64,000 nucleotides of DNA from Lota lota (Eukaryota > Chordata > Actinopteri > Gadiformes > Lotidae). The first letter of the stretch is position 1. Every line of letters begins with the position of its first letter. This document shows, in pieces, positions 3,001 to 50,957 of the stretch. Below the pieces are notes generated by a model. That model had not been told where the DNA came from and searched no databases. It saw nothing but the letters and a program-made list of their open reading frames with translations. The position numbers were made by a program, and so were the translations under genes. The DNA is taken from the NCBI GenBank assembly GCA_026745465.1, contig JACYXH010000517.1:1-64000 (forward strand), given 5' to 3'.

Positions 3001-4440
3001 GACGAAGGAGGAGGAGGAAGGAAGGAGGAAGGACGGGGGGAGGAAGGATGGCGGACGAAGGAGGAAGGACTGGGGACGGAGGAAGAAGGACGAAGGACGG
3101 GGACGAAGGAGGAGGAGGAGGAAGGACGGGGAGGAGGAAGGACGGGGACGAAGGAGGAAGGACGGGGACGAAGGAGGAAGGACGGGGACGAAGGAGGAAG
3201 GACGGGGACGAAGGACAGTGGACGAAGGAGGAAGGACGGGGACGAAGGAGGAGGAGGAAGGACGAGGAGGAAGGAGGAGGAGGAAGGACGGGGACGAAGG
3301 AGGAGGAGGAAGGAGGAAGGACGGGGGACGAAGGAGGAAGGAGGAGGAGGAAGGACGGGGACGAAGGAGGAGGAGGATGGGGGAGGAAGGACGGGGACGA
3401 AGGAGGAGAAGGAAGGACAGTGGACGAAGGAGGAAGGACGGGGACGAAGGAGGAGGAGGAAGGAGGAAGGAGGAGGAGGAAGGAAGGAGGAAGGACGGGG
3501 GAGGAAGGACGGCGGACGAAGGAGGAAGGACAGTGGACGTAGGTGGAGGAGGATGGGGGAGGAAGGACGGGGACGAAGGAGGAGAAGGAAGGACAGTGGA
3601 CGAAGGAGGAAGGACGGGGACGAAGGAGGAGGAGGAAGGAGGAAGGAGGAAGGAGGAAGGAGGAAGGAGGAGGAGGAAGGAAGGAGGAAGGACGGGGGAG
3701 GAAGGACGGCGGACGAAGGAGGAAGGACAGTGGACGAAGGAGGAAGGACGGGGACGAAGGAGGAGGAGGAGGAAGGACGGGGGAGGAAGGAGGAAGGATG
3801 GGGGACGAAGGAGGAAGGACGGGGACGAAGGAGGAGGAGGAGGAAGGACAGTGAACGAAGGAGGAAGGACGGGGACGAAGGATGAAGGAGGAAGGACAGT
3901 GGACGAAGGAAGAAGGACGGGGACGAAGGACGGGGACGAAGGAGGAAGGACATTGGACGAAGGAGGAAGGACTGGGGAGGAAGGACGGAGGAGGAAGAAG
4001 GACGGGGACGAAGGAGGAAGGACAGTGGACGAAGGAGGAAGGACTGGGGACGAAGGAGGAGGAGGAAGGACAGTGGACGAAGGAGGAAGGACTGGGGAGG
4101 AAGGACGGAGGAATTAGGACAGTGGACGAAGGAGGAAGGACTGGGGAGGAAGGACGGAGGAGGAAGAAGGACGGGGGACAGGGGAGGAAGGACGGAGGAG
4201 GAAGAAGGAGGAAGGACGGGGACGAAGGAGGAGGAGGAAGGACGGAGAAGGAAGAAGGACGAAAGAGGAAGGACGGGGGACGAAGGAGGAGGAGGAGGAA
4301 GGACGGGGGAGGAAGGACGGGGACAAAGGAAGGACGGGGGAGGAAGGAGGAGGAAGAAGGACGAAGGAGGAGGAGCAAGGACGGGGACAAAGGTAGGACG
4401 GGGGACAAAGGAGGAAGGACGGGGACGAAGGAAGGAAGAA
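1..4440. repeat. Purine-rich GGA/GAC satellite, 4.4 kb
   Basis: Nearly the whole stretch is built from GAAGGA, GGACGAAGGAGG and AAGGACGGGG words. The plus strand is almost free of T, so no frame meets stop codons often; plus-strand frames of 816 and 506 codons read as K/R/D/E/G repeats and one minus-strand frame of 1335 codons reads as S/P/L/F/V repeats. None has domain structure or gene-like codon use. Larger blocks recur: a segment with the words GAGAAAGGACAGTGGACGG and GACGTGAACGAAGG occurs near 1190, 1560 and 2490, so there is higher-order duplication. The block decays into degenerate A-rich purine sequence between 4430 and 4600. Confidence 0.95.
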
Positions 4441-8101: not shown

Positions 8102-10239
8102 GCTGCACAAAAAAATAAAATAAAATACAACTTAGCTGTGATCCTTCAGTCTACACATGCTGGGTTAGGTTAACCTAACCCTCGTGCTCTATTCCTGCAT
8201 CACAAAGTAAAAAATTATGAACAACAATCGAAATAATCAATAATTTTTTCGGATGACGTTAATACAATTCACTTGACTGTGATTTTCCCCAGACATCAGA
8301 AGAGGGTTAGGGGTAAATGTCAGGGCAGTAATACTAATAGGGCGCTTATTCTAATACCTACCTGATCTTTAATCATCTGGGATTACAAAACATAAGACTG
8401 CTACTGACCAAATACCTTTACAGAAATAAATATATTGCCATTATTTAAAAGTTACACATGTTTATGATAAATCAACACCACCATAGTCTTCATGCTGTAT
8501 TTAAATGAGCAGCAGCAACAACAAATCATACTATGCAACTAATAAATGTTGTGAAATTCATTATCCGGTTCTCCACCTTTATACTCCTTTCAACCTAGCG
8601 TCGTATCCATGACTTCACTCTAATGACAAGTAATCCAAACCTTACAGATCTGATGTCTACAAGCTCAGACAAAAACACTCTTACTGTTGGTTCTTTTAGG
8701 AGACCAACACCTGCTACAAACTGCATCTACGCTTCCACTGTCGGTTTCAGCAATGCACACCTTTGTGTTCTGATCTTATAAATTACTAAAGGGTACAAAC
8801 ATTGGACCGCAATGGCATTCGCTTTAGGGTTTCACGCTCTGTCAACAATTTCATTGTTTCAACACTCCATGAAACACTATGCTAACCTCACGGTGAATTC
8901 AGAGGCTCTGCACTTTCACTTGACCTCTGAACCCATTCATAATCATCATCTTTTAGCATTTTGTATTTAGCTCTCAAACTAAAGACAAACATCGACGCAT
9001 GCACAGATAGCCTGAGGGTCACAAAGCACAATGTGACGTGACTGTGCAGTTGGCCCGATTCCACATTACAAAAGCAAATACAACATGGGTAAAGAGAAAG
9101 CATGTTTATTTATCAAGCAACAAGTCTTCACATATACAAAGCACTTCAAGCCCGCGATTCTAAATCAACACCCTGATAGGGAAAAACTTTGAACAATAAA
9201 ACAGAGCAGCCGAGGGACAAGGCTGGTTTACAGTTTCACATTAAGGATGGTTAGCTTTGTATAACGTTTCAAATAGGATATACAGTTAGTTAGGATAAAG
9301 TTTAGGCCCTGTTTGGTATAGGCATTACTTTACCTTTATTATTATACCTTTATGCATTACGTTATTCATTACCTATGCGAGTCTAGGCATTTTAGATGTT
9401 TAGCTATTAGGTAAGACAGCTTGGGCATTGCACATGTTTAGGTTACATTGTCAAGTTTAGGTATTACATTAAACTTGTGGTTCAATTGAGGCATTAGGGT
9501 TACAAAGAAGATCAAGGATAACGTTTGCTTCCGGCTTGTCCCTTTAGTCGCTCCCTTAAAAAGAAGGTTCACAGCTACGGGGTTACATATACGAGGGCTT
9601 GGATCATAGCTATGGTTTACAGAAATAAAGTAGACAGATCAAAACATACTTCACCAAAACGTGGTGTGGCATCGTGTAGTTTGTTCTAAACGTTGAAACA
9701 GTACAGTCAATATGGTGTGCGGGTGTAGCCGGGGATCCTAAGGGAGGATGGGGAATAGGACGCTGGTGTACATCGACTCTCTTCAGTCATCACACTGTGA
9801 AGTGAATTGATGTCAAAAGTAAATTCAGTTTCACATTGGGGATTTAAGACATTTTCATGCCCATATATACATTAACAGCACCGACATGGGCTTTACCTGT
9901 GTCAAACCCGGGTCATTACGTTTAGCATTTCATTTAAATTAGACACAGGTGAAACACAACAACCTACGCATTAAATCATTACAGCAAAAAGAAACTCCAA
10001 ACACAAATTGCTGCCTCACCGGGTTTCTTCAATTAAATTATAATTACGTGCTCCTCCGGTTGTATTACAGTTACTGCATCTAAATAAACACTTTCCTTAA
10101 GAGCACACGAGTCAATGGACATGTTCCCAGAAAAAAAACGTGTTCGGACCTTTTACAAACATCACGAGGGATTATACTACTGCCGTTTGATCAGTTTTGT
10201 CTATTTAAGAAAACAGTATGTAATTATTAGCACTCTCAC

Positions 10240-10284: not shown

Positions 10285-11532
10285 CTATTTATCCACAGAG
10301 TCACAAAAAGGGTAAAACATTAATCAAGGGTAAATATAGAAATTATCAACACAAGCATTGTCTAACATAGGCCTGGGCAATGTTCCTTCTTTACAACCCG
10401 TCCCAGAATGATTTGCCTTCCAAACATACAAAAGATTACAAATTACATTTACAACATTATTTCTTACATGAACCAATACAGCTACCAGGGATCTTGGATA
10501 TTAAATACCATCGTCTCATAAATAATCCAATAAAGCTACTAGGGATGTTTCAACAAAACATTGGCAATGATTAGGTTCTTCATAACTTTGTTACAACGCT
10601 AGGCCTATAAAACAAAAGGATAGACTGACATCATGTACCGGTGTTTTAGCGCCTCCGCCACATTGCCTCATGTACATGCACTGATTGGATGGACTCACAC
10701 GCTCTAGCGAGTATGGTTTCAGATGGGTCTGAGCAAAGTGTTAAAGCGACATACATGCAAACCAAAACTAACCCTGTTGAATAAATGCAAACCAAACCAA
10801 TTACATGTTCCATCCAGTATCTTACCCGGATCCACATGGTGTCTAGGCCGCTGTACTGCAAAACTTTGGTCCTTTAAACTCAGGAGTGCGGCCCGGAGTA
10901 GAGGATGCACCGTTTAGTCATCGAGCTGCTTGGTGGTTTTTATTTCATCCCTTAAAAAAGCAGATAAAAGTTGGACCACCCTAGCAACTACACATTCGTG
11001 ACAATTTAACAGCAAATATGCTTCAGAAGATTAAAAACATCAGCAGATTAGATCATTTTTAACATCAGATTTACTATAACTCAATATTAATTGTATGAAC
11101 AAATTATATTTCCTGGATAATGGACTTCAAGTTGCCAAAATAAATTCAACCATTAACATGGTCAATTTCAATGCATAGTCCAAGTTCACAGCACAGATTA
11201 AATGGAGAAAACTAGATTACTAACTAGAGGTGAAATCCACCAGCACAATTGCATTTACTGTACCAACTGACGGTGAGTTAAGACCGGCTTCAAATAAATG
11301 GCACTGCCAGAAAATGCATTTAATAAAACACTGCACATAATGACACATCACGCAGCAGTCACAATGAAGTAAAAAAAAATTAAAGACTAGACAATAATCA
11401 ACACTGTTAACAACTGTCATATCTGAAATATGTTGACCTATAAAAGTGCTTTAACACTAATATGTTGTATTTTCAACTATAGCCATCACAAAGATACTGT
11501 AAATCAAATATCAAGGAAGGTTAACAACTTAC
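10285..11532. other. Unique AT-rich sequence, no gene seen
   Basis: Only short open frames (up to 71 codons) without recognisable domains. This is the unamplified flank of the exon-cassette array. Confidence 0.5.
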
Positions 11533-11680
11533 TGTTGGTTGTGCAGCTTTCATGACATGACTGAGGTAGCTGTGAATCCGAGGCCAGGGTCAGGGAACAG
11601 TTTGTGGGATGAGAGTCGTCAGGAGTGCCAATCTCCTGGAGGTGCTGTCGGATCTGTCTGGGGCCGCTGTGGTTCTGGTC
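11533..11680 (-). other. Founder-like exon cassette B0 (148 bp)
   Basis: On the minus strand the acceptor ATTTTACAG is followed by 148 bp and the donor GTAAGT. One frame is open from end to end, starting DQNHSGPRQIRQHLQEIGTP and ending SCTTN. All other B copies (146 bp) have a 2-bp insertion after CAGACAG and a 2-bp deletion about 35 bp later, so they shift frame and shift back. They also end in a stop in this frame. B0 differs most from the others, lies at the array edge and keeps the open frame, so it is the best candidate for the ancestral state. No protein family is recognised. Confidence 0.5.
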
Positions 11681-12467
11681 CTGTAAAATAAAACCGTTTT
11701 TACTGTTTGGCTTCTGTGTAAAACTCTACCAAATACAAAGGATGCGTGTTTGGCCACATTCATTCACATGTATCCTACATTTTACAGACACAAACGGTGC
11801 CAGAAACACATGAGGGAGACCTAAGTCCTCATGTGTTTCAGCGCCACTTGCAGACTGTTGAAGTCCCAAAAGGACTTTAATCAAACCCGAGTAATACCTA
11901 TATATAAGTGAATGAATGTTGACCTATAACACCGCATTAACACACTTCTTATAAGAAATATGGTGAGTTTTAAACTATAGCCATCATAAAGAAATACTTA
12001 TCAGATAGATGACAGCAAGAACCTCCAGCTGACTACCACAAGGACCTCCAGCTGACCACCGCAAGGACCTCCAGCTGACCACCTCAAGAACCTCCAGCTG
12101 CATCGCCTCAGTCCTTCTGAAAGGTCAAACAGGTTTTATTTGCACACAACAGTTTTAAACTATAGCCATAAAGAAATACTTATCAAATAGCTAACATCAA
12201 GGAGCTCCAGCTGACATCCACCGCAAGGACCTCCAGCTGCATCGCCTCAGTCCTTCTGAAAGTTCAAACGGGTTTTATTTGCACACAGAACATTTGTTCT
12301 CCCCATTATGATACCAATATGTATTTTACTCCAGTAATGCTATAGCTCACTCAGATGGCTACACTTTATTTTACATGGACCTTCTTCCACACAGCGTAGC
12401 CTTGATTGAAGCTGGAATTACAATCGTTACTACTAAAATTAAAGAGATGTGCTGTTAAATGTCTTAC

Positions 12468-12880
12468 CTTCTTGGACTGCACCGCTCCGGGTCTTCCCTC
12501 CACCTGCAGCTCCCAGCGCCGGTCCTGCATCAGACAGCTCTGTACAACACCACCCTTGCCTAAAACATGAACATAAAATACTGTTCATTACTTTGCTAAT
12601 CCATGGAAACGTGTTGAGTACTGAGATATATCTGAATGAATGTTGACCTACACAACTGCATTAACACACTTAAACTAAAGCCTACACATAAGACACTAAA
12701 TCAAATGACCAGAAAAGTGACTATTCTAACTTACTGGTGGTTGTGTTGTACTCTGTTTTGACATTAGTGAACCGTCTCTGGATCAGAGGCCAGGGAATCG
12801 TTTGTGGGATGAGACGTCAGGAGTGCCAATCTCCTGGAGGTGCTGTCGGATCTCTGTCTGGGGCCGCTGTGGTTCCGCTC
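12468..12880 (-). other. Array unit 1: exon cassettes B and A
   Basis: Cassette B is 12735-12880 (acceptor TTTCACAG, donor GTAAGT, 146 bp). Cassette A is 12468-12559 (acceptor TTTTAG, donor GTAAGA, 92 bp). Cassette A has a frame reading KGGVVQSCLMQDRRWELQVE that stays open to the donor. Cassette B is closed in all three frames. A 13-bp-stem hairpin (13012-13048) lies 132 bp upstream of B. Confidence 0.5.
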
Positions 12881-13011
12881 CTGTGAAATAAAACAGTTTT
12901 TACTGTTTGGCTTATGTGTACAACTCAACCAAATACAAAGGATGCGTGTTCGGCTACATTCATTCACGTATATCCTCCATTATCCGGGCTTTACAGACAC
13001 AAGCGGAGCTA

Positions 13012-13048
13012 GAAACACATGAGGGAGTACTACGTCCTCATGTGTTTC
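13012..13048. repeat. Hairpin repeated in each array unit (representative)
   Basis: GAAACACATGAGG and CCTCATGTGTTTC form a perfect 13-bp stem around an 11-nt loop. The same hairpin is present about 130 bp from every B cassette, and in looser form beside B0 near 11.80-11.84 kb. Confidence 0.75.
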
Positions 13049-13511
13049 AGCGCCACTTGCATACTGTTGGCGTCCCTAAAGGACTTTAAACCAACCCGAG
13101 TAATAGCTAAATACATGAATGAATGTTGACCTATAACACCGCATTAACACACTTCTTATAAGAAATATGGTGGGTTTTAAACTATAGCCATCATAAAGAA
13201 ATACTTATCAGATAGCTGACAGCAAGGACCTCCAGCTGACCACCGCAAGGACCTCCAGCTGACCACCGCAAGGACCTCCAGCTGCAACGCCTCAGTCATT
13301 CTGAAAGTTCAAACGTCTTTTATTTGCACACAGAACATTTGTTCTCCCATCATGATAAAAATATGTATTTTACTCCAGTAATGCTATAGCTCATTCAGAT
13401 GGCTACACTTTATTTTACATGGACCTTCTTCCACACAGCGTAGCCTTGATTGAAGCTGGAATTACAATCATCAATACAAAAATTAAAGAGATGTGCTGAT
13501 CAATGTCTCAC

Positions 13512-13943
13512 CTTGTTGGACTGTACCGCTCCTGGTCTTCACTCCACCTGCAGCTCCAAGCGCCAGTCCTGCATCGGACAGCTCTGTAGAACCCTGCTCT
13601 AGACTACAACATGACCCAAAAATACAGTTCATTACTTTGCTAATCCATGGAAACGTGTTGAGTACTGTGAAATATCTGAATGAATGTTGACCTACACAAC
13701 TGCATTAACACTTACAATAAATAGGTCAGGTTTTAAACTAAAGCGTACACATAAAACACTAAATCAAATGACCAGAAAGGTGACTCTTCTATCTTACTGG
13801 TGGTTGTGTTGTACTCTGCTTTGACGTTAGTGAAGCCTCTCTGGATCAGAGGCCAGGGAACCGTTTGTGGGATGAGACGTCAGGAGTGCCATTCTCCTGG
13901 AGGTGCTGTCGGATCTCTGTCTGGGGCCGCTGTGGTTCCGCTC
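13512..13943 (-). other. Array unit 2: exon cassettes B and A
   Basis: B is 13798-13943 with an intact acceptor and donor. A is about 13512-13598 with donor GTGAGA. Its acceptor end differs from other A copies: it has a GTAGTCTAG-like acceptor and the word AGCAGGGTTCTACAGAG, shared only with the truncated A10 copy near 27.7 kb. That points to gene conversion or common descent between these two copies. Confidence 0.5.
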
Positions 13944-14280
13944 CTGTGAAATAAAACAGTTTTTACTGTTTGGCTTATGTGTACAACTCAACCAAATACA
14001 ATGGATGCGTGTTTGGCCACATTCATTCACGTATATCCTCCATTATCCGGGCTTTACAGACACAAGCGGAGCTAGAAACACATGAGGGAGTACTACGTCC
14101 TCATGTGTTTCAGCGCCACTTGCACACTGTTGGTGTCCCTAAAGGACTTTAAACCAACCCGAGTAATAGCTAAATACGTGAATGAATGTTGACCTATAAC
14201 ACTGCATTAACACACTTCTTATAAGAAATATGGTGGGTTTTAAACTATAGCCATCATAAAGAAATACTTATCAGATAGCT

Positions 14281-15605
14281 GACAGCAAGGACCTCCAGCT
14301 GACCACCACGAGGACCTCCAAATGCATAGCTTCAATCCTTCTGAAAGTTCAAACGTGTTTTATTTGCAACCAATAGTTTTAAACTACAGCCATAAAGAAA
14401 TACTTATCAAATAGCTGACATCAAGGACCTCCAGCTGACCACCGCAAGGACCTCCAGCTGACCACCGCAAGGACCTCCAGCTGACCACCGCAAGGACCTC
14501 CAGCTGCATCGCCTCAGTCCTGAAAGTTCAAACATATTCTATTTGCACACGGAACATTTGTACAACCGTTTTAAACTATAGCCATTAATCACATATCAAA
14601 TCATAAATCAAGTAGCTGACCTCCACTGAAAAGAGCTCCAGCTGACCAACACAAGGACCTCCAGCTGACCACCACAAGGACCTCCAGCTGCATCGCCTCA
14701 GTCCTTCTGAAAGTTCAAACGTGTTTTATTTGCACACAGAACATTTGTACACAACAGTTTTAAACTATAGCCATAAATCAAATCATAAATCAAATAGCTG
14801 ACCTCCACCGCAAACACCTCAGGCTGACCACCGCAAGGACCTCCAGCTGACCACCACAAGGACCTCCAGCCGCATAGCCTCAATCCTTCTGAAAGTTCAA
14901 ACGTGTTTTATTTGCACACAACAGTTTTAAACTACAGCCATAAAGAAATACTTATCAAATAGCTGACATCAAGGACCTCCATCTGACCACCGCAAGGACC
15001 TCCAGCTGACCACCGCAAGGACCTCCAGCTGACCACCGCAAGGACCTCCAGCTGCATCGCCTCAGTCGTTCTGAAAGTTCAAACGTGTTTTATTTGCACA
15101 CACACAAAACATTTGTACACAACAATTTTAAACTTTAGCCAAAAAGAAATATTTATTAAGTGGCTGAAAGCAAGGACCTCCAGCTAACCACAAGGACCTC
15201 CAGCTGACCACCGCAAGGACCTCAGCCTGACCACCGCAAGGACCTCCAGCTACATCGCCTCAGTCCTTCTGAAAGTTCAAATGTGTTTTATTTGCACACA
15301 GAAAATTTTTACACAAGTTTTAAACTATAGCCATTAATCACATATCAAATCCTAAATCAAATAGCTGACCTCCACCACAAAGACCTCCAGCTGACCAACG
15401 CAAGGACCTCAGGCTGACCACCGCAAGGACCTCCAGCTGCATCGCCTCAGTCCTTCTGAAACTTCAAACGAGTTTTATTTGCACTCACTGTTTTAAACTA
15501 CAGCCATAAAGAAATACTTATCAGATAGCTGACATCAAGGACCTCCAGCTGACCACCGCAAGGACCTCCATCTGACCACCGCAAGGACCTCCATCTGCAT
15601 CACCT
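14281..15605. repeat. Dense 23-bp minisatellite block in array
   Basis: Runs of the 23-mer containing AAGGACCTCCAGCTG alternate with a spacer holding TTTTAAACTATAGCC or its ACAGCC variant, about every 150-250 bp. Similar blocks occupy 16.6-17.2, 18.2-19.6, 20.6-22.0, 22.97-24.15 and 27.25-27.49 kb. Confidence 0.85.
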
Positions 15606-15822
15606 CAGCCCTTCTGAAAGTTCAAATGTGTATTATTTGCACACTGAACATTTGATCTCCCCGTCACGATGCAAATATGTATTTTACTCCAATAATGCTT
15701 ATAGCTCACTCAGATGGCTACACTTTATTTTACATGGACCTTCTTCCACACAGTGTAGTCTTGATTGAAGATGGAATTACATTAGTAATAAGAAATTAGA
15801 GACGTGTGGTTCCTTGTCACAC

Positions 15823-16264
15823 CCCTTCTGCATCTCTTGGACTGCACCGCTCCTGGCCTTCCCTCCACCTGCAGCTCCCAGCGCCGGTCCTGGATCGGAC
15901 AGCTCTGTACAACACAACTCTTGCCTAAAACATGAACATAAAATACTGTTCATTACTTTGCTAATCCATGGAAACGTCTTGAGTACTGTGATATATCTGA
16001 ATGAATGTTGACCTACACAACTGCATTAACACTTACAATAAATAGGTCAGGTTTTAAACTAAAGCGTACACATAAAACACTAAATCAAATGACCAGAAAG
16101 GTGACTCTTCTATCTTACTGGTGGTTGTGTTGTACTCTGCTTTGACGTTAGTGAAGCCTCTCTGGATCAGAGGCCAGGGAACCGTTTGTGGGATGAGACG
16201 TCAGGAGTGCCAATCTCCTGGAGGTGCTGTCGGATCTCTGTCTGGGGCCGCTGTGGTTCCGCTC
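15823..16264 (-). other. Array unit 3: exon cassettes B and A
   Basis: B is 16119-16264 with intact sites. A is about 15823-15924 with a weakened donor (GTGTGA instead of GTGAGA, with an extra G). This is the only clearly damaged splice donor among the full units. Unit 3 lies 2321 bp from unit 2 because of extra 23-mer blocks at 14.3-15.6 kb. Confidence 0.45.
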
Positions 16265-17415
16265 CTGTGAAATAAAACAGTTTTTACTGTTTTGCTTATG
16301 TGTAAAACTCAACCAAATACAAAGGATGCGTGTTTGGCCACATTCATTCACGTATATTTTCCATTATCTGGGCTTTACAGACACAAGCGGAGCTAGAAAC
16401 ACATGAGGGAGTACTACGTCCTCATGTGTTTCAGCGCCACTTGCATACTGTTGGCGTCCCTAAAGGACTTTAAACCAACCCGAGTAATAGCTAAATACGT
16501 GAATGAATGTTGACCTATAACACTGCATTAACACACTTCTTATAAGAAATATGGTGGGTTTTAAACTATAACCATCATAAAGAAATACTTATCAGATAGC
16601 TGACAGCAAGGACCTCCAGCTGACCAACACAAGGACCTCCAGCTGACCACCGCAAGGACCTCCAGCTGACCACCACAAGGACCTCCAAATGCATTGCCTC
16701 AATCCTTCTGAAAGTTCAAACGTGTTTTATGTGCAACCAACAGTTTTAAACTACAGCCATAAAGAAATACTTATCGAATAGCTGACATCAAGGACCTCCA
16801 GCTGACCACCGCAAGGACCTCCAGCTGACCACCACAAGGACCTCCAGCTGCATCGCCTCAGTCCTGAAAGTTCAAACATATTCTATTTGCACACGGAACA
16901 TTTGTACACAAGTTTTAAACTATAGCCATTAATCACATATCAAATCATAAATCAAGTAGCTGACCTCCACTGAAAAGAGCTCCAGCAGACCAACACAAGG
17001 ACCTCCAGCTGCATCACCTCAGTCCTGAAAGTTCAAACGTGTTTTATTTGCACACAACAGTTTTAAACTACAGCCATAAAGAAATACTTATCAAATAGCT
17101 GACATCAAGGACCTCCAGCTGACCACCGCAAGGACCTCCAGCTGACCACCACAAGGACCTCCATCTGACCACCGCAAGGAACTCCAGCTGCATCGCCTCA
17201 GTCCTTCTGAAAGTTCAAATGTGTATTATTTGCACACTGAACATTTGATCTCCCCGTCATGATGCAAATATGTATGTTACTCCAATAATGCTTATAGCTC
17301 ACTCAGATGGCTACACTTTATTTTACATGGACCTTCTTCCACACAGTGTAGTCTTGATTGAAGATGGAATTACATTAGTAATAAGAAATTAGAGACGTGT
17401 GGTTCATTGTCTCAC

Positions 17416-17856
17416 CCTTCTGCATCTCATGGACTGTACCGCTCCTGGCCTTCCCTCCACCTGCAGCTCCCAGCGCCGGTCCTGGATCGGACAGCTCTGT
17501 ACAACACCACTCTTGCCTAAAACATGAACATAAAATACTGTTCATTACTTTGCAAATCCATGGAAACGTCTTGAGTACTGTGATATATCTGAATGAATGT
17601 TGACCTACACAACTGCATTAACACTTACAATAAATAGGTCAGGTTTTAAACTAAAGCGTACACATAAAACACTAAATCAAATGACCAGAAAGGTGACTCT
17701 TCTATCTTACTGGTGGTTGTGTTGTACTCTGCTTTGACGTTAGTGAAGCCTCTCTGGATCAGAGGCCAGGGAACCGTTTGTGGGATGAGACGTCAGGAGT
17801 GCCATTCTCCTGGAGGTGCTGTCGGATCTCTGTCTGGGGCCGCTGTGGTTCCGCTC
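17416..17856 (-). other. Array unit 4: exon cassettes B and A
   Basis: B is 17711-17856 (GTAAGA donor). A is 17416-17516 (101 bp, donor GTGAGA, ending AGATGCAGAAGG before the donor). Unit 4 and unit 5 are offset by exactly 2418 bp in both cassettes and look almost identical. Confidence 0.5.
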
Positions 17857-19833
17857 CTGTGAAATAAAACAGTTTTTACTGTTTGGCTTATGTGTACAAC
17901 TCAACCAAATACAATGGATGCGTGTGTGGCCACATTCATTCACGTATATCCTCCATTATCCGGGTTTTACAGACACAAGCGGAGCTAGAAACACATGAGG
18001 GAGTACTACGTCCTCATGTGTTTCAGCGCCACTTGCATACTGTTGGCGTCCCTAAAGGACTTTAAACCAACCCGAGTAATAGCTAAATACGTGAATGAAT
18101 GTTGACCTATAACACTGCATTAACACACTTCTTATAAGAAATATGGTGGGTTTTAAACTATAGCCATCATAAAGAAATACTTATCAGATAGCTGACAGCA
18201 AGGACCTCCAGCTGAACACCGCAAGGACCTCCAGCTGCATCGCCTCAGTCCTGAAAGTTTAAACGTGTTTTATTTGCACACAGAACATTTGTACACAACA
18301 GTTTTTAACTATAGCCATAAATCAAATCATAAATCAAATAGCTGACCTCCACCGCAAAGACTTCGGGCTGACCACCGCAAGGACCTCCAGCTGACTACCA
18401 CAAGGACCTCCAAATGCATAGCTTCAATCCTTCTGAAAGTTCAAACGTGTTTTATTTGCAACCAACAGTTTTAAACTACAGCCATAAAGAAATACTTATC
18501 AAATAGCTGACATCAAGGACCTCCAGCTGACCACCGCAAGGACCTCCAGCTGACCACCGCAAGGACCTCCAGCTGACCACCGCAAGGACCTCCAGCTGAC
18601 CACCGCAAGGACCTCCAAATGCATAGCCTCAAGCCTTCTGAAAGTTCAAACGTGTTTTATTTGCAACCAACAGTTTTAAACTACAGCCATAAAGAAATAC
18701 TTATCAAATAGCTGACATCAAGGAGGTCCAGCTGCATCGCCTCAGTCCTGAAAGTTCAAACATGTTCTATTTGCACACAAGTTTTAAACTATAGCCATTA
18801 ATCACATATCAAATCATAAATCAAGTAGCTGACCTCCACTGAAAAGAGCTCCAGCTGACCAACACAAGGACCTCCAGCTGACCACCACAAGGACCTCCAG
18901 CTGCATCGCCTCAGTCCTGAAAGTTCAAACATGTTCGATTTGCACACATGAACATTTGTACACAAGTTTTAAACTATAGCCATTAATCCCATATCAAATC
19001 ATAAATCAAGTAGCTGACCTCCACTGAAAAGAGCTCCAGCTGACCAACACAAGGACCTCCAGCTGACCACCACAAGGACCTCCAGCTGACCACCACAAGG
19101 ACCTCCCGCTGCATCACCTCAGTCCTGAAAGTTCAAACGTGTTTTATTTGCACACAGAACATTTGTACACAACAGTTTTAAACTATAGCCAGAAATCAAA
19201 TCATAAATCAAATAGCTGACCTCCACCGCAAAGACTTCAGGCTGACCACCGCAAGGACCTCCAGCTGACCATCGCAAGGACCTCCAGCTGCATCGCCTCA
19301 GTCCTGAAAGTTCAAACATGTTCTATTTGCACACATGAACATTTATACACAAGTTTTAAACTATAGCCATTAATCACATATCAAATCATAAATCAAGTAG
19401 CTGACCTCCACTGAAAAGAGCTCCAGCAGACCAACACAAGGACCTCCAGCTGCATCACCTCAGTCCTGAAAGTTCAAACGTGTTTTATTTGCACACAACA
19501 GTTTTAAACTACAGCCATAAAGAAATACTTATCAAATAGCTGACATCAAGGACCTCCAGCTGACCACCGCAAGGACCTCCATCTGACCACCGCAAGGAAC
19601 TCCAGCTGCATCGCCTCAGTCCTTCTGAAAGTTCAAATGTGTATTATTTGCACACTGAACATTTGATCTCCCCGTCATGATGCAAATATGTATTTTACTC
19701 CAATAATGCTTATAGCTCACTCAGATGGCTACACTTTATTTTACATGGACCTTCTTCCACACAGTGTAGTCTTGATTGAAGATGGAATTACATTAGTAAT
19801 AAGAAATTAGAGACGTGTGGTTCATTGTCTCAC

Positions 19834-20274
19834 CCTTCTGCATCTCTTGGACTGTACCGCTCCTGGCCTTCCCTCCACCTGCAGCTCCCAGCGCCGGTCC
19901 TGGATCGGACAGCTCTGTACAACACCACTCTTGCCTAAAACATGAACATAAAATACTGTTCATTACTTTGCAAATCCATGGAAACGTCTTGAGTACTGTG
20001 ATATATCTGAATGAATGTTGACCTACACAACTGCATTAACACTTACAATAAATAGGTCAGGTTTTAAACTAAAGCGTACACATAAAACACTAAATCAAAT
20101 GACCAGAAAGGTGACTCTTCTATCTTACTGGTGGTTGTGTTGTACTCTGCTTTGACGTTAGTGAAGCCTCTCTGGATCAGAGGCCAGGGAACCGTTTGTG
20201 GGATGAGACGTCAGGAGTGCCATTCTCCTGGAGGTGCTGTCGGATCTCTGTCTGGGGCCGCTGTGGTTCCGCTC
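19834..20274 (-). other. Array unit 5: exon cassettes B and A
   Basis: B is 20129-20274 and A is 19834-19934. It is a near-perfect copy of unit 4, so it reflects a recent 2418-bp tandem duplication. Downstream the offset changes to 2395 bp because one 23-bp repeat is missing near 20.94-21.01 kb. Confidence 0.5.
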
Positions 20275-22209
20275 CTGTGAAATAAAACAGTTTTTACTGT
20301 TTGGCTTATGTGTACAACTCAACCAAATACAATGGATGCGTGTGTGGCCACATTCATTCACGTATATCCTCCATTATCCGGGTTTTACAGACACAAGCGG
20401 AGCTAGAAACACATGAGGGAGTACTACGTCCTCATGTGTTTCAGCGCCACTTGCATACTGTTGGCGTCCCTAAAGGACTTTAAACCAACCCGAGTAATAG
20501 CTAAATACGTGAATGAATGTTGACCTATAACACTGCATTAACACACTTCTTATAAGAAATATGGTGGGTTTTAAACTATAGCCATCATAAAGAAATACTT
20601 ATCAGATAGCTGACAGCAAGGACCTCCAGCTGAACACCGCAAGGACCTCCAGCTGCATCGCCTCAGTCCTGAAAGTTTAAACGTGTTTTATTTGCACACA
20701 GAACATTTGTACACAACAGTTTTTAACTATAGCCATAAATCAAATCATAAATCAAATAGCTGACCTCCACCGCAAAGACTTCGGGCTGACCACCGCAAGG
20801 ACCTCCAGCTGACTACCACAAGGACCTCCAAATGCATAGCTTCAATCCTTCTGAAAGTTCAAACGTGTTTTATTTGCAACCAACAGTTTTAAACTACAGC
20901 CATAAAGAAATACTTATCAAATAGCTGACATCAAGGACCTCCAGCTGACCACCGCAAGGACCTCCAGCTGACCACCGCAAGGACCTCCAGCTGACCACCG
21001 CAAGGACCTCCAAATGCATAGCCTCAAGCCTTCTGAAAGTTCAAACGTGTTTTATTTGCAACCAACAGTTTTAAACTACAGCCATAAAGAAATACTTATC
21101 AAATAGCTGACATCAAGGAGCTCCAGCTGCATCGCCTCAGTCCTGAAAGTTCAAACATGTTCTATTTGCACACAAGTTTTAAACTATAGCCATTAATCAC
21201 ATATCAAATCATAAATCAAGTAGCTGACCTCCACTGAAAAGAGCTCCAGCTGACCAACACAAGGACCTCCAGCTGACCACCACAAGGACCTCCAGCTGCA
21301 TCGCCTCAGTCCTGAAAGTTCAAACATGTTCGATTTGCACACATGAACATTTGTACACAAGTTTTAAACTATAGCCATTAATCCCATATCAAATCATAAA
21401 TCAAGTAGCTGACCTCCACTGAAAAGAGCTCCAGCTGACCAACACAAGGACCTCCAGCTGACCACCACAAGGACCTCCAGCTGACCACCACAAGGACCTC
21501 CCGCTGCATCACCTCAGTCCTGAAAGTTCAAACGTGTTTTATTTGCACACAGAACATTTGTACACAACAGTTTTAAACTATAGCCAGAAATCAAATCATA
21601 AATCAAATAGCTGACCTCCACCGCAAAGACTTCAGGCTGACCACCGCAAGGACCTCCAGCTGACCATCGCAAGGACCTCCAGCTGCATCGCCTCAGTCCT
21701 GAAAGTTCAAACATGTTCTATTTGCACACATGAACATTTATACACAAGTTTTAAACTATAGCCATTAATCACATATCAAATCATAAATCAAGTAGCTGAC
21801 CTCCACTGAAAAGAGCTCCAGCAGACCAACACAAGGACCTCCAGCTGCATCACCTCAGTCCTGAAAGTTCAAACGTGTTTTATTTGCACACAACAGTTTT
21901 AAACTATAGCCATAAAGAAATACTTATCAAATAGCTGACTTCAAGGACCTCCAGCTGACCACCGCAAGGACCTCCAGCTCCATCGCCTCAGTCCTTCTGA
22001 AAGTTCAAACGTGTTTTATTTGCACATTGAACATTTGTTCTCCCCGTCATGATGCAAATATATATTTTACTCAAGTAATGCTTATAACTCACTCAGATGG
22101 GTACACTTTATTTTACATTTACCTTCTTCCACACAGTGTAGCCTTGATTGAAGATGGAATTACAATCATTACTACTACAATTAAAGAGATGTGCTGTTCA
22201 TTGTCTCAC

Positions 22210-22641
22210 CTTGTTGGACTGTACCGCTCCTGGCCTTCCCTCCACCTGCAGCTCCCAGCGCCGGTCCTGGATCGGACAGCTCTGTACAACACCACTCTTG
22301 CCTAAAACATGAACATAAAATACTGTTCATTGCTTTGCTAATCCATGGAAACGTGTTGAGTACTGTGATATATCTGAATGAATGTTAACCTACACAACTG
22401 CATTGACACTTACAATAAATATGTCAGGTTTTAAACTAAAGCCAACACATAAAACACTAAATCAAATGACCAGAAAGTTGACTCTACTAACTTACTGGTG
22501 GTTGTGTTGTACTCTGCTTTGACGTTAGTGAAGCCTCTCTGGATCAGAGGCCAGGGAACAGTTTGTGGGATGAGACGTCAGGAGTGCCAATCTCCTGGAG
22601 GTGCTGTCAGATCTCTGTCTGGGGCCGCTGTGGTTCTGCTC
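22210..22641 (-). other. Array unit 6: exon cassettes B and A
   Basis: B is 22496-22641 and A is 22210-22301 (92 bp, short 3' end, donor GTGAGA). This A resembles units 1 and 2 in lacking the extra AGATGC segment, so long (101 bp) and short (92 bp) A versions are interspersed along the array. Confidence 0.5.
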
Positions 22642-24365
22642 CTGTGAAATAAAACAGTTTTTACTGTTTGGCTTATGTGTACAACTCAACCAAATACAAT
22701 GGATGCGTGTTTGGCCACATTCATTCACGTATATCCTCCATTATCCGGGCTTTACAGACACAAGCGGAGCTAGAAACACATGAGGGAGTACTACGTCCTC
22801 ATGTGTTTCAGCGCCACTTGCATACTGTTGGCGTCCCTAAAGGACTTTAAACCAACCCGAGTAATAGCTAAATACGTGAATGAATGTTGACCTATAACAC
22901 TGCATTAACACACTTCTTATAAGAAATATGGTGGGTTTTAAACTATAGCCATCATAAAGAAATACTTATCAGATAGATGACAGCAAGGACCTCCAGCTGA
23001 CCAACACAAGGACCTCCAGCTGACCACCGCAAGGACCTCCAGCTGCATCGCCTCAGTCCTTCTGAAAGTTTAAACGTGTTTTATTTGCAACCAAAAGTTT
23101 TAAACTACAGCCATAAAGAAATACTTATCAAATAGCTGACATCAAGGACCTCCAGCTGACCACCGCAAGGACCTCCAGCTGCATCGCCTCAGTCCTGAAA
23201 GTTCAAACATGTTCTATTTGCACACGGAACATTTGTACACAAGTTTTAAACTATAGCCATTAATACCATATCAAATCATAAATCAAGTAGCTGACCTCCA
23301 CTGAAAAGAGCTCCAACTGACCACCACAAGGACCTCCAGCTGACCACCACAAGGACCTCCAGCCGCATAGCCTCAACCCTTCTGAAAGTTCAAACGTGTT
23401 TTATTCGCAATCAACAGTTTTAAACTACAGCCATAAAGAAATACTTATCAAACAGCTGACATCAAGGACATCCAGCTGACCACCGCAAGGACCTCCATCT
23501 GACCACCGCAAGGAACTCCAGCTGACCACCGCAAGGAACTCCAGCTGCATCGCCTCAGTCCTTCTGAAAGTTCAAACGTGTTTTATTTGCACACACAACA
23601 TTTGTACACAACAATTTTAAACTATAGCCAAAAAGAAATATTTATTAAGTGGCTGAAAGCAAGGACCTCCAGCTGACCATAAGGACCTCCAGCTGACCAC
23701 CGCAAGGACCTCAGCCTGACCACCGCAAGGACCTCCATCTGCCCCCAGTAAGGACCTCCATCTGCATCGCCTCTGTCCTTCTGAAAGTTCAAATGTGTTT
23801 TATTTGCACACAAGTTTTAAACTATAGCCATTAATCAAATATCAAATCCTAAATCAAATAGCTGACCTCCACCACAAAGACCTCCAGCTGACCAACGCAA
23901 GGACCTCAGGCTGACCACCGCAAGGACCTCCAGCTGCATCGCCTCAGTCCTTCTGAAAGTTCAAACGAGTTTTATTTGCACTCACTGTTTTAAACTACAG
24001 CCATAAAGAAATACTTATCAGATAGCTGACATCAAGGAGCTCCAGCTGACCACCGCAAGGACCTCCAGCTGACCACCGCAAGGACCTCCATCTGACCACC
24101 GCAAGGACCTCCAGCTGACCACCACAAGGACCTCCATCTGCATCGCCTCAGTCCTTCTGAAAGTTCCAACGTGTTTTATTTGCACACTGAACATTTGTTC
24201 TCCCCGTCACGATGCAAATATGTATTTTACTCCAGTAATGCTTATGGCTCACTCAGATGGCTACACTTTATTTTACATGGACCTTCTTCCACACAGTGTA
24301 GTCTTGATTGAAGATGGAATTACATTAGTAATAAGAAATTAGAGACGTGTGGTTCATTGTCTCAC

Positions 24366-24806
24366 CCTTCTGCATCTCTTGGACTGCACCGCTCCTGGCC
24401 TTCCCTCCACCTGCAGCTCCCAGCGCCGGTCCTGGATCGGACAGCTCTGTACAACACCACTCTTGCCTAAAACATGAACATAAAATACTGTTCAGTACTT
24501 TGCTAATCCATGGAAACATCTTGAGTACTGTGATATATCTGAATGAATGTTGACCTACACAACTGCATTAACACTTACAATAAATAGGTCAGGTTTTAAA
24601 CTAAAGCGTACACATAAAACACTAAATCAAATGACCAGAAAGGTGACTCTTCTATCTTACTGGTGGTTGTGTTGTACTCTGCTTTGACGTTAGTGAAGCC
24701 TCTCTGGATCAGAGGCCAGGGAACCGTTTGTGGGATGAGACGTCAGGAGTGCCAATCTCCTGGAGGTGCTGTCGGATCTCTGTCTGGGGCCGCTGTGGTT
24801 CCGCTC
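24366..24806 (-). other. Array unit 7: exon cassettes B and A
   Basis: B is 24661-24806 and A is 24366-24466 with canonical sites. Units 7, 8 and 9 are compact (1067 and 1047 bp apart) and very similar to each other, suggesting recent expansion at this end of the array. Confidence 0.5.
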
Positions 24807-25432
24807 CTGTGAAATAAAACAGTTTTTACTGTTTGCCTTATGTGTAAAACACAACCAAATACAAAGGATGCGTGTTTGGCCACATTCATTCACGTATATC
24901 CTCCATTATCCGGGCTTTACAGACACAAGCGGAGCTAGAAACACATGAGGGAGTACTACGTCCTCATGTGTTTCAGCGCCACTTGCATACTGTTGGCGTC
25001 CCTAAAGGACTTTAAACCAACCCGAGTAATAGCTAAATACGTGAATGAATGTTGACCTATAACACTGCATTAACACACTTCTTATAAGAAATATGGTGGG
25101 TTTTAAACTATAGCCATCATAAAGAAATACTTATCAGATAGATGACAGCAAGGACCTCCAGCTGACCGCAAGGACCTCCAGCTGACCACCACAAGGACCT
25201 CCAGCTGCATCGCCTCAGTCCTTCTGAAAGTTCAAATGTGTATTATTTGCACACTGAACATTTGTTCTCCCCGTCACGATGCAAATATGTATTTTACTCC
25301 AGTAATGCTTATGGCTCACTCAGATGGCTACACTTTATTTTACATGGACCTTCTTCCACACAGTGTAGTCTTGATTGAAGATGGAATTACATTAGTAATA
25401 AGAAATTAGAGACGTGTGGTTCATTGTCTCAC

Positions 25433-25873
25433 CCTTCTGCATCTCTTGGACTGCACCGCTCCTGGCCTTCCCTCCACCTGCAGCTCCCAGCGCCGGTCCT
25501 GGATCGGACAGCTCTGTACAACACCACTCTTGCCTAAAACATGAACATAAAATACTGTTCAGTACTTTGCTAATCCATGGAAACATCTTGAGTACTGTGA
25601 TATATCTGAATGAATGTTGACCTACACAACTGCATTAACACTTACAATAAATAGGTCAGGTTTTAAACTAAAGCGTACACATAAAACACTAAATCAAATG
25701 ACCAGAAAGGGGACTCTTCTATCTTACTGGTGGTTGTGTTGTACTCTGCTTTGACGTTAGTGAAGCCTCTCTGGATCAGAGGCCAGGGAACCGTTTGTGG
25801 GATGAGACGTCAGGAGTGCCAATCTCCTGGAGGTGCTGTCGGATCTCTGTCTGGGGCCGCTGTGGTTCCGCTC
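25433..25873 (-). other. Array unit 8: exon cassettes B and A
   Basis: B is 25728-25873 and A is 25433-25533, both with intact AG and GT sites. The unit is 1067 bp from unit 7 and nearly identical to it. Confidence 0.5.
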
Positions 25874-26479
25874 CTGTGAAATAAAACAGTTTTTACTGTT
25901 TGGCTTATGTGTAAAACACAACCAAATACAAAGGATGCGTGTTTGGCCACATTCATTCACGTATATCCTCCATTATCCGGGCTTTACAGACACAAGCGGA
26001 GCTAGAAACACATGAGGGAGTACTACGTCCTCATGTGTTTCAGCGCCACTTGCATACTGTTGGCGTCCCTAAAGGACTTTAAACCAACCCGAGTAATAGC
26101 TAAATACGTGAATGAATGTTGACCTATAACACTGCATTAACACACTTCTTGTAAGAAATATGGTGGGTTTTAAACTATAGCCATCATAAAGAAATACTTA
26201 TCAGATAGATGACAGCAAGGACCTCCAGCTGACCACCACAAGGACCTCCAGCTGCATCGCCTCAGTCCTTCTGAAAGTTCAAATGTGTATTATTTGCACA
26301 CTGAACATTTGTTCTCCCCGTCACGATGCAAATATGTATTTTACTCCAGTAATGCTTATGGCTCACTCAGATGGCTACACTTTATTTTACATGGACCTTC
26401 TTCCACACAGTGTAGTCTTGATTGAAGATGGAATTACATTAGTAATAAGAAATTAGAGACGTGTGGTTCATTGTCTCAC

Positions 26480-26920
26480 CCTTCTGCATCTCTTGGACTG
26501 TACCGCTCCTGGCCTTCCCTCCACCTGCAGCTCCCAGCGCCGGTCCTGGATCGGACAGCTCTGTACAACACCACTCTTGCCTAAAACATGAACATAAAAT
26601 ACTGTTCAGTACTTTGCTAATCCATGGAAACATCTTGAGTACTGTGATATATCTGAATGAATGTTGACCTACACAACTGCATTAACACTTACAATAAATA
26701 GGTCAGGTTTTAAACTAAAGCGTACACATAAAACACTAAATCAAATGACCAGAAAGGTGACTATTCTAACTTACTGGTGGTTGTGTTGTACTCTGCTTTG
26801 ACGTTAGTGAAGCCTCTCTGGATCAGAGGCCAGGGAATCGTTTGTGGGATGAGACGTCAGGAGTGCCAATCTCCTGGAGGTGCTGTCGGATCTCTGTCTG
26901 GGGCCGCTGTGGTTCCGCTC
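26480..26920 (-). other. Array unit 9: exon cassettes B and A
   Basis: B is 26775-26920 and A is 26480-26580, with intact splice sites. It is the last complete unit at the high-coordinate end, 1047 bp from unit 8. Confidence 0.5.
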
Positions 26921-27666
26921 CTGTGAAATAAAACAGTTTTTACTGTTTTGCTTATGTGTAAAACACAACCAAATACAAAGGATGCGTGTTTGGCCACATT
27001 CATTCACGTATATCCTCCATTATCCGGGCTTTACAGACACAAGCGGAGCTAGAAACACATGAGGGAGTACTACGTCCTCATGTGTTTCAGCGCCACTTGC
27101 ATACTGTTGGCGTCCCTAAAGGACTTTAAACCAACCCGAGTAATAGCTAAATACGTGAATGAATGTTGACCTATAACACTGCATTAACACACTTCTTATA
27201 AGAAATATGGTGGGTTTTAAACTATAGCCATCATAAAGAAATACTTATCAGATAGATGACAGCAAGGACCTCCAGCTGACCACCACAAGGACCTCCAGCT
27301 GCATCGCCTCAGTCCTTCTGAAAGTTCAAACGTGTTTTATTTGCACACAACAGTTTTAAATTATAGCCATAAAGAAATACTTATCAAATAGCTGACATCA
27401 AGGACCTCCAGCTGACCACCGCAAGGACCTCCAGCTGACCACCGCAAGGACCTCCAGCTGACCACCGCAAGGACCTCCAGCTGCAGTCCTTCTGAAAGTT
27501 CAAACGTGTTTTATTTTTATTATTTATTTTACTCCAGTAATGCTATAGCTCACTCAGATGGCTATAGTTTATTTTACATGGACCTTCTTCCACACAGTGT
27601 AGTCTTGATTGAAGAGGGAATTACATTAGTAATAAGAAATTACAGATGTGTGGCTCATTGTCTCAC

Positions 27667-27725
27667 CTTTCTGCATCTCTTGGAATGTAGCGCTCCTGGA
27701 TCGGACAGCTCTGTAGAACCCTGCT
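27667..27725 (-). other. Truncated exon cassette A10 (59 bp)
   Basis: This copy keeps an acceptor (GTAGTCTAG) and a donor (GTGAGA) but lacks the central WELQVEGR-type segment. One frame is open across it (SRVLQSCPIQERYIPRDAE). It would be the first cassette met by transcription from the candidate exon at 28.86 kb, and the reading frame is compatible with that exon (phase 0). Confidence 0.4.
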
Positions 27726-27896
27726 CTAGACTACAACCTGACCCTGAAAAAGAAATCACTGTTCATTTAGAATTCTTAAGAAACATATGACTCATAAGTC
27801 ACACATTTGAGAGCAACTGTTTAATGCTTCAGTAAATATAATATAAATACAAAAAAATATATATATATATAAAATGTAAATATTAAAAAGGACTAT

Positions 27897-28073
27897 AAAA
27901 ACTACGCCAACGGCAGGTGTCAGCCATGCAAGGCGACAACACGTCGGGAGCGGTTAGGTTTCGGTGCTCAGGGACACCTCGACAACCAGCTAGGAGGAGC
28001 CGGGGATCGAACTAGCATCCTTCTGACTGCCAGTCAATCCGCTCTGCCTCCCGAGGAAATGTCGCCCCGATAA
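27897..28073 (-). mobile_element. tRNA-derived SINE, minus strand
   Basis: Minus-strand order is as follows. It starts CGGGGCGACATTTCCTCGGG with box A-like GGAGGCAGAGCGG. Next come box B-like AGTTCGATCCCC, CGGCTCCTCC and GTCGAGGTGTCCCTGAGC, then CGCTCCCGACGTG and a TTGTCGCCTTGCATGGC word. The RNA polymerase III box layout marks a tRNA-head SINE. It is better preserved than the copy at 7.93 kb and lies just beyond the array edge. Confidence 0.8.
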
Positions 28074-28859
28074 ATTAAAAAAAACAACCAAGCTGTGCTC
28101 CGCTCCTTCCTCGGACCCTCAGACCCCTGCGGCACAACTCAACAACGTATGAAGAACAAGAAAATAAATCCAACCAAAGGGCTGGACCCTCCTTTGGGTT
28201 TACATCTTTACTAAATAATTATCCTTCCCCTCCTCTCGTTCTTTACTACTAACCCTTTATAGAAATACTTAGACCATATCTAACCCTTCTTGGATTTTTC
28301 AAATGTCGGATATCTTCAGACATATCCATAAGACTAGTTTTCATCTGAACCCTTCGACGGCTTGGTCAAATCTATAATTAATTTGATTCAAGTGAATTTG
28401 CACTTTCAATAAGCGGTTCCAATTATATTCAAAGCACTACGGTGAAGGGGACAGATCCCTTCTAAGACGTTCCCTTAAAATAGTTTGGATTCACAAAGTA
28501 AGAGAAGCCACGGATTTCCTAACCCTAGTTACTGAATCAAAAACAATTGTCAGAAATGCTGTGAGAAATCACAACTGGTCTTTATGTGACCCAGGTACTA
28601 TCCGACACACAAAACCCAGAATAAACTGGAACCACAGACAGAAGATATATTAACTAAAGACATTCGTCAAATCAAGGATAAAGACACCAAGGAAGTCCAC
28701 AATGTGTGGCTACACTCAGGGAGGTTAGTCTACAAGAGAGAATCCTCACCACACACCCCAACATTTTCTAAAAGCTACGCAAAGTAAAGGGAAATAATAT
28801 AACTTGCTAGACTGGAACACAGTACCCTCACAATCCAAACCGCATCATTTTCTACTTAC
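28074..28859. other. Unique sequence, nothing recognised
   Basis: Mixed-composition single-copy sequence with no long open frame and no repeat structure. If the exon at 28.86 kb is real, this would be its first intron. Confidence 0.5.
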
Positions 28860-28960
28860 AAGGTACGCACTGTTGCTCACAGGACGCATACTGCGCAAGT
28901 GAAGGACCAGACCGGAGCGATTGGGCCCTATTTCAGGTGATTTCACTGATTAGCACACCT
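28860..28960 (-). other. Candidate first exon of the array transcript
   Basis: On the minus strand an ATG at 28889 opens ten codons (MRPVSNSAYL) and runs in phase 0 into a consensus donor GTAAGT at 28859-28854. The upstream limit is inferred from promoter motifs. Spliced in silico to A10 and then to the B of unit 9, the frame would end at a stop inside B after about 50 codons, so it could be a short peptide or the start of a noncoding RNA. This is a hypothesis from splice signals and position only. Confidence 0.3.
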
Positions 28961-28971
28961 GTGGGGCGAGT

Positions 28972-28983
28972 CCACGTGACGTC
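28972..28983 (-). promoter_or_regulatory. Overlapping E-box and CRE motifs
   Basis: CACGTG (28973-28978) overlaps TGACGTC (28977-28983). Such sites bind USF/MITF and CREB/ATF families in vertebrate promoters. They lie about 85 bp upstream of the candidate ATG on the minus strand. Confidence 0.35.
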
Positions 28984-28999
28984 TCTTGTAAAAAAACAT

Positions 29000-32600: not shown

Positions 32601-32616
32601 CTTGTTGGGCACAGCG

Positions 32617-32935
32617 GTTAGGGTTAGGGTAACCCTGGACTGGGTTCGGGTTACCCTAACCCTGGACTGGGTTCGGGTTACCCTAACCCTGGACTGGGTT
32701 CGGGTTACTCTAACCCTGGACTGGGTAATCCTAACCCTGGACTGGGTTAGGGTAACCCTAACCCTGGACTGGGTTCGGGTTACCCTAACCCTGGACTGGG
32801 TAATCCTAACCCTGGACTGGGTTCGGGTTACCCTAACCCTGGACTGGGTAATCCTAACCCTGGACTGGGTTCGGGTTACCCTAACCCTGGACTGGGTTCG
32901 GGTTACCCTAACCCTAACCTTAACCCTGACCCTAA
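32617..32935. repeat. Telomere-like minisatellite (CCCTAA/TTAGGG-derived)
   Basis: About eleven copies of a roughly 27-bp unit (AACCCTGGACTGGGTTCGGG then TTACCCT) are flanked by true TTAGGGTTAGGG at 32620 and CCCTAACCCTAACC at 32907. The unit is a TTAGGG relative fused to GGACTGGG. The repeated frame RVTLTLDW on the plus strand is compositional. Confidence 0.9.

Positions 32936-38517: not shown

Positions 38518-50957
<12,440 letters not shown>

Follow-up and report, generated by a model that had tools for sequence, protein, structure and literature searches.

The primate C19MC locus is built of tandem units with noncoding exons, and its hairpins lie in the introns of large RNA polymerase II transcripts; the SNORD115/116 hosts likewise have repeated noncoding exons, with a small RNA in the intron of each unit. 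C19MC holds 46 genes over 100 kb on primate chromosome 19 and Alu elements are thought to have aided its expansion (PMC5487532), amplified microRNA hairpins lie within intron 10 of rodent Sfmbt2 (PMC3212979), and miR-430 of fishes, with the seed AAGUGCU, occurs in tandem clusters that in some species occupy more than one place or lie near mobile elements (PMC10417697). Here we analyzed a window of 64,000 nucleotides from Lota lota (bases 1–64000 of contig JACYXH010000517.1, hereafter C517, of 704,151 bases; the assembly, GCA_026745465.1, holds 575 Mb in 867 contigs), in which a tandem array of paired exon-like segments, A and B, lies on the minus strand. A 26-pair hairpin, which a preliminary description of this window did not mention, stands upstream of each A. 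We favor, with moderate confidence, the explanation that the array represents a single copy of a noncoding, spliced, multi-locus unit of RNA polymerase II type on the minus strand, whose intronic hairpins would be functional and perhaps microRNA-like.

With BLAST, ten A-type and ten B-type segments were located in the interval 11.5–27.8 kb. All lie on the minus strand, and the array reads in that direction as B0, nine hairpin-A-B units and a final hairpin with A0. BLAST and alignment agree with the preliminary description in the nine A-B pairs and in the B-like piece at the high end (B0, 27667–27730), which has an internal deletion and is also present in arrays on contigs C321 and C379. The "truncated A" that it placed at the opposite end is found as well, at the low end (A0, 11533–11680; 148 bp, with one open frame), but its 3′ end is diverged rather than cut, and it has its own acceptor and donor. 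With units numbered along the minus strand, the hairpin of unit 1 occupies 27028–27110, those of the other eight units start at 25981, 24914, 22749, 20382, 17964, 16372, 14051 and 12988, and that of A0 lies at 11779–11861. The hairpin has a 26-pair stem and an 11-nt loop. In the nine window units it precedes the acceptor of A by about 117 bp, and its core of 63 columns shows zero variants among them. A 71-nt segment, within the 60–80 nt expected of a precursor, folds at −38.7 kcal/mol (z = −7.5), and a 122-nt segment at −55.1 kcal/mol (z = −7.3). When 152 windows were scanned on both strands of unit 1 and its neighbor, the seven lowest z scores all fell on the two hairpins. Altogether, 64 hairpins were found in the 284,586 bases examined, all of them inside arrays.

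The nucleotide changes in the hairpin reveal a constraint on pairing in minus-strand RNA. Among 57 hairpin copies, whose variants share ancestry and were counted once per variant of a column, the upper arms have 0.3–0.4 deviants per column, versus 5.9 in the loop. Transversions number 4 on 51 stem sites versus 151 on 507 other sites, and the stem transitions are skewed, with 8 of the kinds A>G and C>T versus 2 of the reverse kinds, compared with 49 versus 50 in the rest of the unit. The 25 pairs tested contain 13 variant events; in minus-strand RNA, pairing survives all 10 transitions, in 8 cases as G-U, and is broken by all 3 transversions. Breaks on the minus strand (3/13) are thus far fewer than the 21.0 expected from the substitution spectrum of the unit (0 of 20,000 simulations were as low), and P did not exceed 0.00015 in any of seven runs, which covered backgrounds taken from the flanks only or from exon A, a restriction to internal units, and inclusion of the basal pair. 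Read as plus-strand RNA, 11 of the 13 events break pairing versus 21.1 expected (P = 0.006–0.0075). No additional break in the pairs tested comes from seven further copies, one of them partial, at loci L004, L007 and L008. The stem is therefore slow to change whichever strand is read; the pairing rule, though, fits the minus strand, on which the splice and poly(A) signals also lie. Such a preference for G-U on one strand is not expected of a symmetric DNA palindrome, and conserved arms, a free loop and kept pairing on this strand are what a microRNA cluster should show.

The amplified part is enclosed by constant ends. At the upstream end is a candidate first-exon and promoter island (E1, 28860–28985, minus strand; donor GTAAG at 28859, ATG at 28889), of which 28856–28961 can be aligned with the arrays on C300, C453 and C566, while the adjoining intron cannot. 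Because these three copies of the second array class are identical to one another there, the alignment amounts to one independent comparison. At 9.1–9.8 kb lies a conserved terminal exon with an AATAAA signal (E4, 9085–9794, minus strand; the acceptor ends at 9795, AATAAA is at 9110–9105, and the position given for the 3′ end is a guess). As in a spliced long noncoding RNA, a single strand bears the splice sites, the terminal exon and the poly(A) signal, and the island and the terminal exon lend support to the earlier proposal of a minus-strand spliced unit with a noncoding amplified part and a first exon near 28.9 kb. The peptide proposed to start at 28889 is unlikely, for its 10 codons show 5 substitutions relative to the other array class, each of which changes the amino acid.

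It is also evident that the array belongs to a dispersed family. A 201-base exon A query gave at least 40 matches on at least 12 contigs, its own included (40 of 111 candidates scored), and a 1001-base query of the 3′ terminal-exon (E4) region gave at least 81 matches on at least 33 contigs (40 of 161 candidates scored), with at least 11 places, its own included, at 89–100% identity and the others down to 64%; both sets of counts are lower bounds. The preliminary description had supposed one undescribed minus-strand transcript; the signals of a spliced unit are present, but with the cassette on at least 12 contigs a single transcript is not supported. Six further array loci were examined beside the window, some of them in part, and polarity is identical in all seven arrays. 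The five complete arrays share the order first-exon island, B0 or a 5′-truncated A, (hairpin-A-B)n, hairpin-A0 and E4, with n = 7–9 (9 in C517, 8 in C321, 7 in C300, 7 in C453, and 8 in C566, where BLAST split one A); of the two seen incompletely, C705 has n of at least 8 and C379, which is cut by a contig end, at least 4. The splice-site pattern first seen in the window is common to this family: in the seven arrays the acceptor AG is kept in 50 of 51 internal A copies and the donor GT in 51 of 51, and B copies keep the acceptor AG in 50 of 51.

In a tree of the 57 units, with 15 of 50 inner branches well supported, in no case do the units of a locus form a single clade. The six A0 units group together (support 100/100), as do the units adjoining A0 in six loci (support 99/95), which suggests that arrays were copied as blocks. 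Homogenization within loci was rejected, given this lack of single-locus clades and 36 locus changes on the tree versus a shuffled mean of 38.7; some clustering by locus is seen in C517 (9 of 500 shuffles as low) and C321 (7 of 500), and none in the other five of the seven. Beyond the arrays, five divergent loci all carry E3, E4 and AATAAACAT, and four of them carry B. Among aligned copies, 3 of 3 retain GT at the donors of B and E3, and 2 of 2 retain the acceptor of E4. No exon A was found above chance in any of the five. E3 is an exon candidate at 10826–10963 (minus strand), whose donor at 10825 is kept in divergent copies and whose 5′ end is uncertain in the window. A 45–46-base part of it (10867–10912) also matches divergent copies in reverse orientation at 85–91%, so E3 holds a palindrome-like stretch.

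The exons of the window array are 146 bp (A) and 92–102 bp (B) long. On the minus strand, A and B lie at 26775–26920 and 26480–26580 in unit 1, 25728–25873 and 25433–25533 in unit 2, 24661–24806 and 24366–24466 in unit 3, 22496–22641 and 22210–22301 in unit 4, 20129–20274 and 19834–19934 in unit 5, 17711–17856 and 17416–17516 in unit 6, 16119–16264 and 15823–15924 in unit 7, 13798–13943 and 13512–13603 in unit 8 (where B has a B0-like start), and 12735–12880 and 12468–12559 in unit 9. All nine internal A copies have TCACAG at the acceptor and GTAAG at the donor; B acceptors are TTTTAG or TTGTAG, and B donors are GTGAG or GTAAG in eight of nine. The ninth, GTGTG in unit 7, is the third B from the low end and was missed by a strict splice pattern; it is the weakened donor that the preliminary description had correctly placed in its unit 3. 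The persistence of splice signals, also claimed there, means little alone, as exons differ as much as introns. The mean pairwise difference among window units is 0.017 in exon A, 0.055 in exon B, 0.012–0.077 in other non-hairpin parts and 0 in the hairpin. Because the units are 93.3–99.7% identical across about 1.05 kb, introns included, persistence of the signals is by itself no proof of selection, and the youth of the copies explains much of it.

Several observations weigh against a functional, spliced hairpin host. Tests for exon-specific constraint in three data sets were negative; invariant columns around A make up 51% of exon versus 48% of intron in the seven arrays, and in three divergent copies B is 94–96% identical and the following intron 88–94%, which we count as no excess in the exon. 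The hairpin is absent from all five divergent loci and is thus young. The plus strand folds with an equal or stronger z score (−8.1, and elsewhere −10.3 versus −7.5), so folding alone does not name the strand, and plus-strand breaks are also below expectation, though far less so than minus-strand ones (P = 0.006–0.12 over varied backgrounds), since change in the stem is overall rarer than around it. Two-sided compensation shows no excess, the covariation score being reached by 115 of 500 shuffles. No Rfam family reached its gathering score in the window, and a 24-column stretch upstream of the hairpin changes even less than the hairpin does. A segment with AGTGTGTTAATGCAGTGTTATAGGTCAACATTCATTCACG at about 27130–27175 (minus strand) holds these columns, the slowest 24-column window of the unit, and diverged second and third copies of the segment were seen by eye at about 26650–26700 in the A-B intron and at about 11430–11470 after A0, both on the minus strand. 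Three sub-threshold Rfam hits near unit 1 were taken as chance, and IMG/VR pattern scans returned no hit for the hairpin or the B core.

The main rival is a dispersed repeat, either an unclassified mobile element or a segmental duplication, that once carried exons, has no function and grows by unequal exchange, its splice signals reflecting youth. We regard it as a serious possibility, though a somewhat doubtful one; it explains everything but the hairpin pattern and the constant ends. The spread of exon A and the E4 region, the mixing of loci in the unit tree and the want of exon-specific constraint all agree with it. A transposable element should have dispersed copies with common boundaries; the copies are dispersed, and their boundaries differ between the array classes. 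Moreover, in 7 of 10 array contigs of known size the array lies within 30 kb of a contig end, and none of nine candidate peptides (A and B in several frames, A0, the first exon joined to B0 and to A, and two other frames) has a Pfam match. A repeat without function would not, however, be expected to show a strand-specific constraint on hairpin pairing or to keep constant ends with a first-exon island and a poly(A) signal. Neither a transposase nor terminal inverted repeats nor a target-site duplication came to notice in a search that was not exhaustive, and no transposase, reverse transcriptase or helicase was found among ten peptides scanned, which do not amount to a full scan of the copies. 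The preliminary description had held that cassettes matching a known transposable element family spread across the genome would speak against its transcript; they are indeed dispersed, but they were not identified with any known transposable element.

A noncoding RNA in which the hairpin stays uncut and acts within the transcript, as a protein-binding, editing or retention element, draws on the same evidence of pairing constraint, and the position of the hairpin, ahead of the acceptor of A in each of the nine window units, could allow it to steer splicing. We consider this explanation unlikely, as a varying loop between two nearly fixed arms is at least equally in keeping with a cut precursor. 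Selection on the hairpin as single-stranded DNA during copying of an element, as in rolling-circle transposition, would produce the same one-strand pattern through G-T pairs in one DNA strand, and Helitrons are known to contain minisatellites and captured exon-like pieces; but the hairpin is repeated within the array rather than set at one end, and neither helicase nor Rep was found in the ten peptides, short of a full scan, which leaves this explanation very improbable. A protein-coding gene with alternative repeated exons has next to no probability, for although B and A0 have open frames and A0 and short B are phase-compatible, none of the nine internal window copies of exon A has an open frame, the longest frame in four modelled transcripts (models without E3 and unit-7 B) has 71 codons, and beside the missing Pfam matches a PDB sequence search found only elastase (E = 0.87), taken as chance. 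The B copies themselves, earlier described as closed in all frames, each have two or more frames open from acceptor to donor. In divergent copies, a frame runs from an ATG at the B end into E3, assuming the splice join, for 23 codons in L028 and 34 codons in L031; by eye, it survives a 33-base deletion between these two, is shortened in L032 and is broken in the window.

Other features of the window surround the array. Blocks of a 23-bp minisatellite span 12007–27483 in the introns after B copies, many of them in repeats of about 182–205 bp. The contig starts with a 4.4-kb purine-rich GAGGAAG array (1–4438), and this, with the nearness of arrays to contig ends, suggests a possibly subtelomeric location of the family or its interruption by repeats of this kind. 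Near 32.4–32.6 kb the homology to C321 and C379 stops, and a degenerate 27-bp repeat with telomere-like TAACCC pieces lies at 32616–32915. The segment 27898–28174, which looks like a tRNA-type short interspersed element, has a 74% match in the C300, C453 and C705 arrays, in a stretch whose place corresponds to that of window 7.9–8.2 kb; the filtered self-comparison of the window gave no pair between 27898–28174 and 7.9–8.2 kb. Further along is a KH-domain exon of a PCBP-like gene (45092–45346, minus strand; Pfam KH_1, E = 5.8×10−06, the tenth peptide scanned), which we take to be PCBP3 and which is in keeping with a vertebrate genome.

For the functional hairpin host that we favor, we propose the following course. 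An RNA polymerase II transcript would start near 28.98 kb and end past the AATAAA at 9.1 kb. Between these constant ends the hairpin-exon A-exon B cassette would have been amplified in tandem, and the arrays then copied elsewhere, at least partly as blocks. Exons A and B, spliced or skipped, would serve as carriers, and each excised intron would release its hairpin as a microRNA-like precursor into small-RNA processing, perhaps for the regulation of targets. The hairpin would be the most likely selected product; if it is a microRNA, 21–23-nt reads are expected at the arm sequences GCAAGTGGCGCTGAAACACATGAGG and CCTCATGTGTTTCTAGCTCCGCTTG. With one hairpin before each A, array length would set the dose. 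More tentatively, the family may be lineage-specific, with perhaps at least a dozen spliced noncoding host loci, each bearing about 7–9 near-identical minus-strand-RNA hairpins, so that one small RNA might come from about 100 copies whose number can change by unequal exchange. If so, this would be a recent and independent origin of a C19MC-like plan, probably in fish and at several loci, with copy number still changing, and dosage, array turnover and the birth of a small-RNA gene could be measured in one genome. Among the titles listed by literature searches, none described the family, which is not proof that no description exists.

Among the known systems, the Sfmbt2 cluster also has amplified hairpins in an intron, but it is a single locus in a coding gene, unlike the family described here. 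The SNORD115/116 hosts resemble the window array in their repeated noncoding exons with a small RNA in each intron; their small RNAs are box C/D small nucleolar RNAs, whereas here there is a long hairpin and no small nucleolar RNA at the Rfam threshold. The miR-430 clusters are likewise tandem hairpins of fishes, though a less close likeness than C19MC, and the spliced A-B exons seen here are not described for them in the accessible part of PMC10417697. Identity with miR-430 was rejected, as its seed occurs in 0 of 57 hairpin copies on both strands and there is no Rfam match. C19MC differs from the present family of candidate clusters, in which one nearly identical hairpin of other sequence is repeated in 7–9 units (five complete arrays) on several contigs; what the two share is the plan itself, tandem noncoding-exon units with hairpins in their introns.

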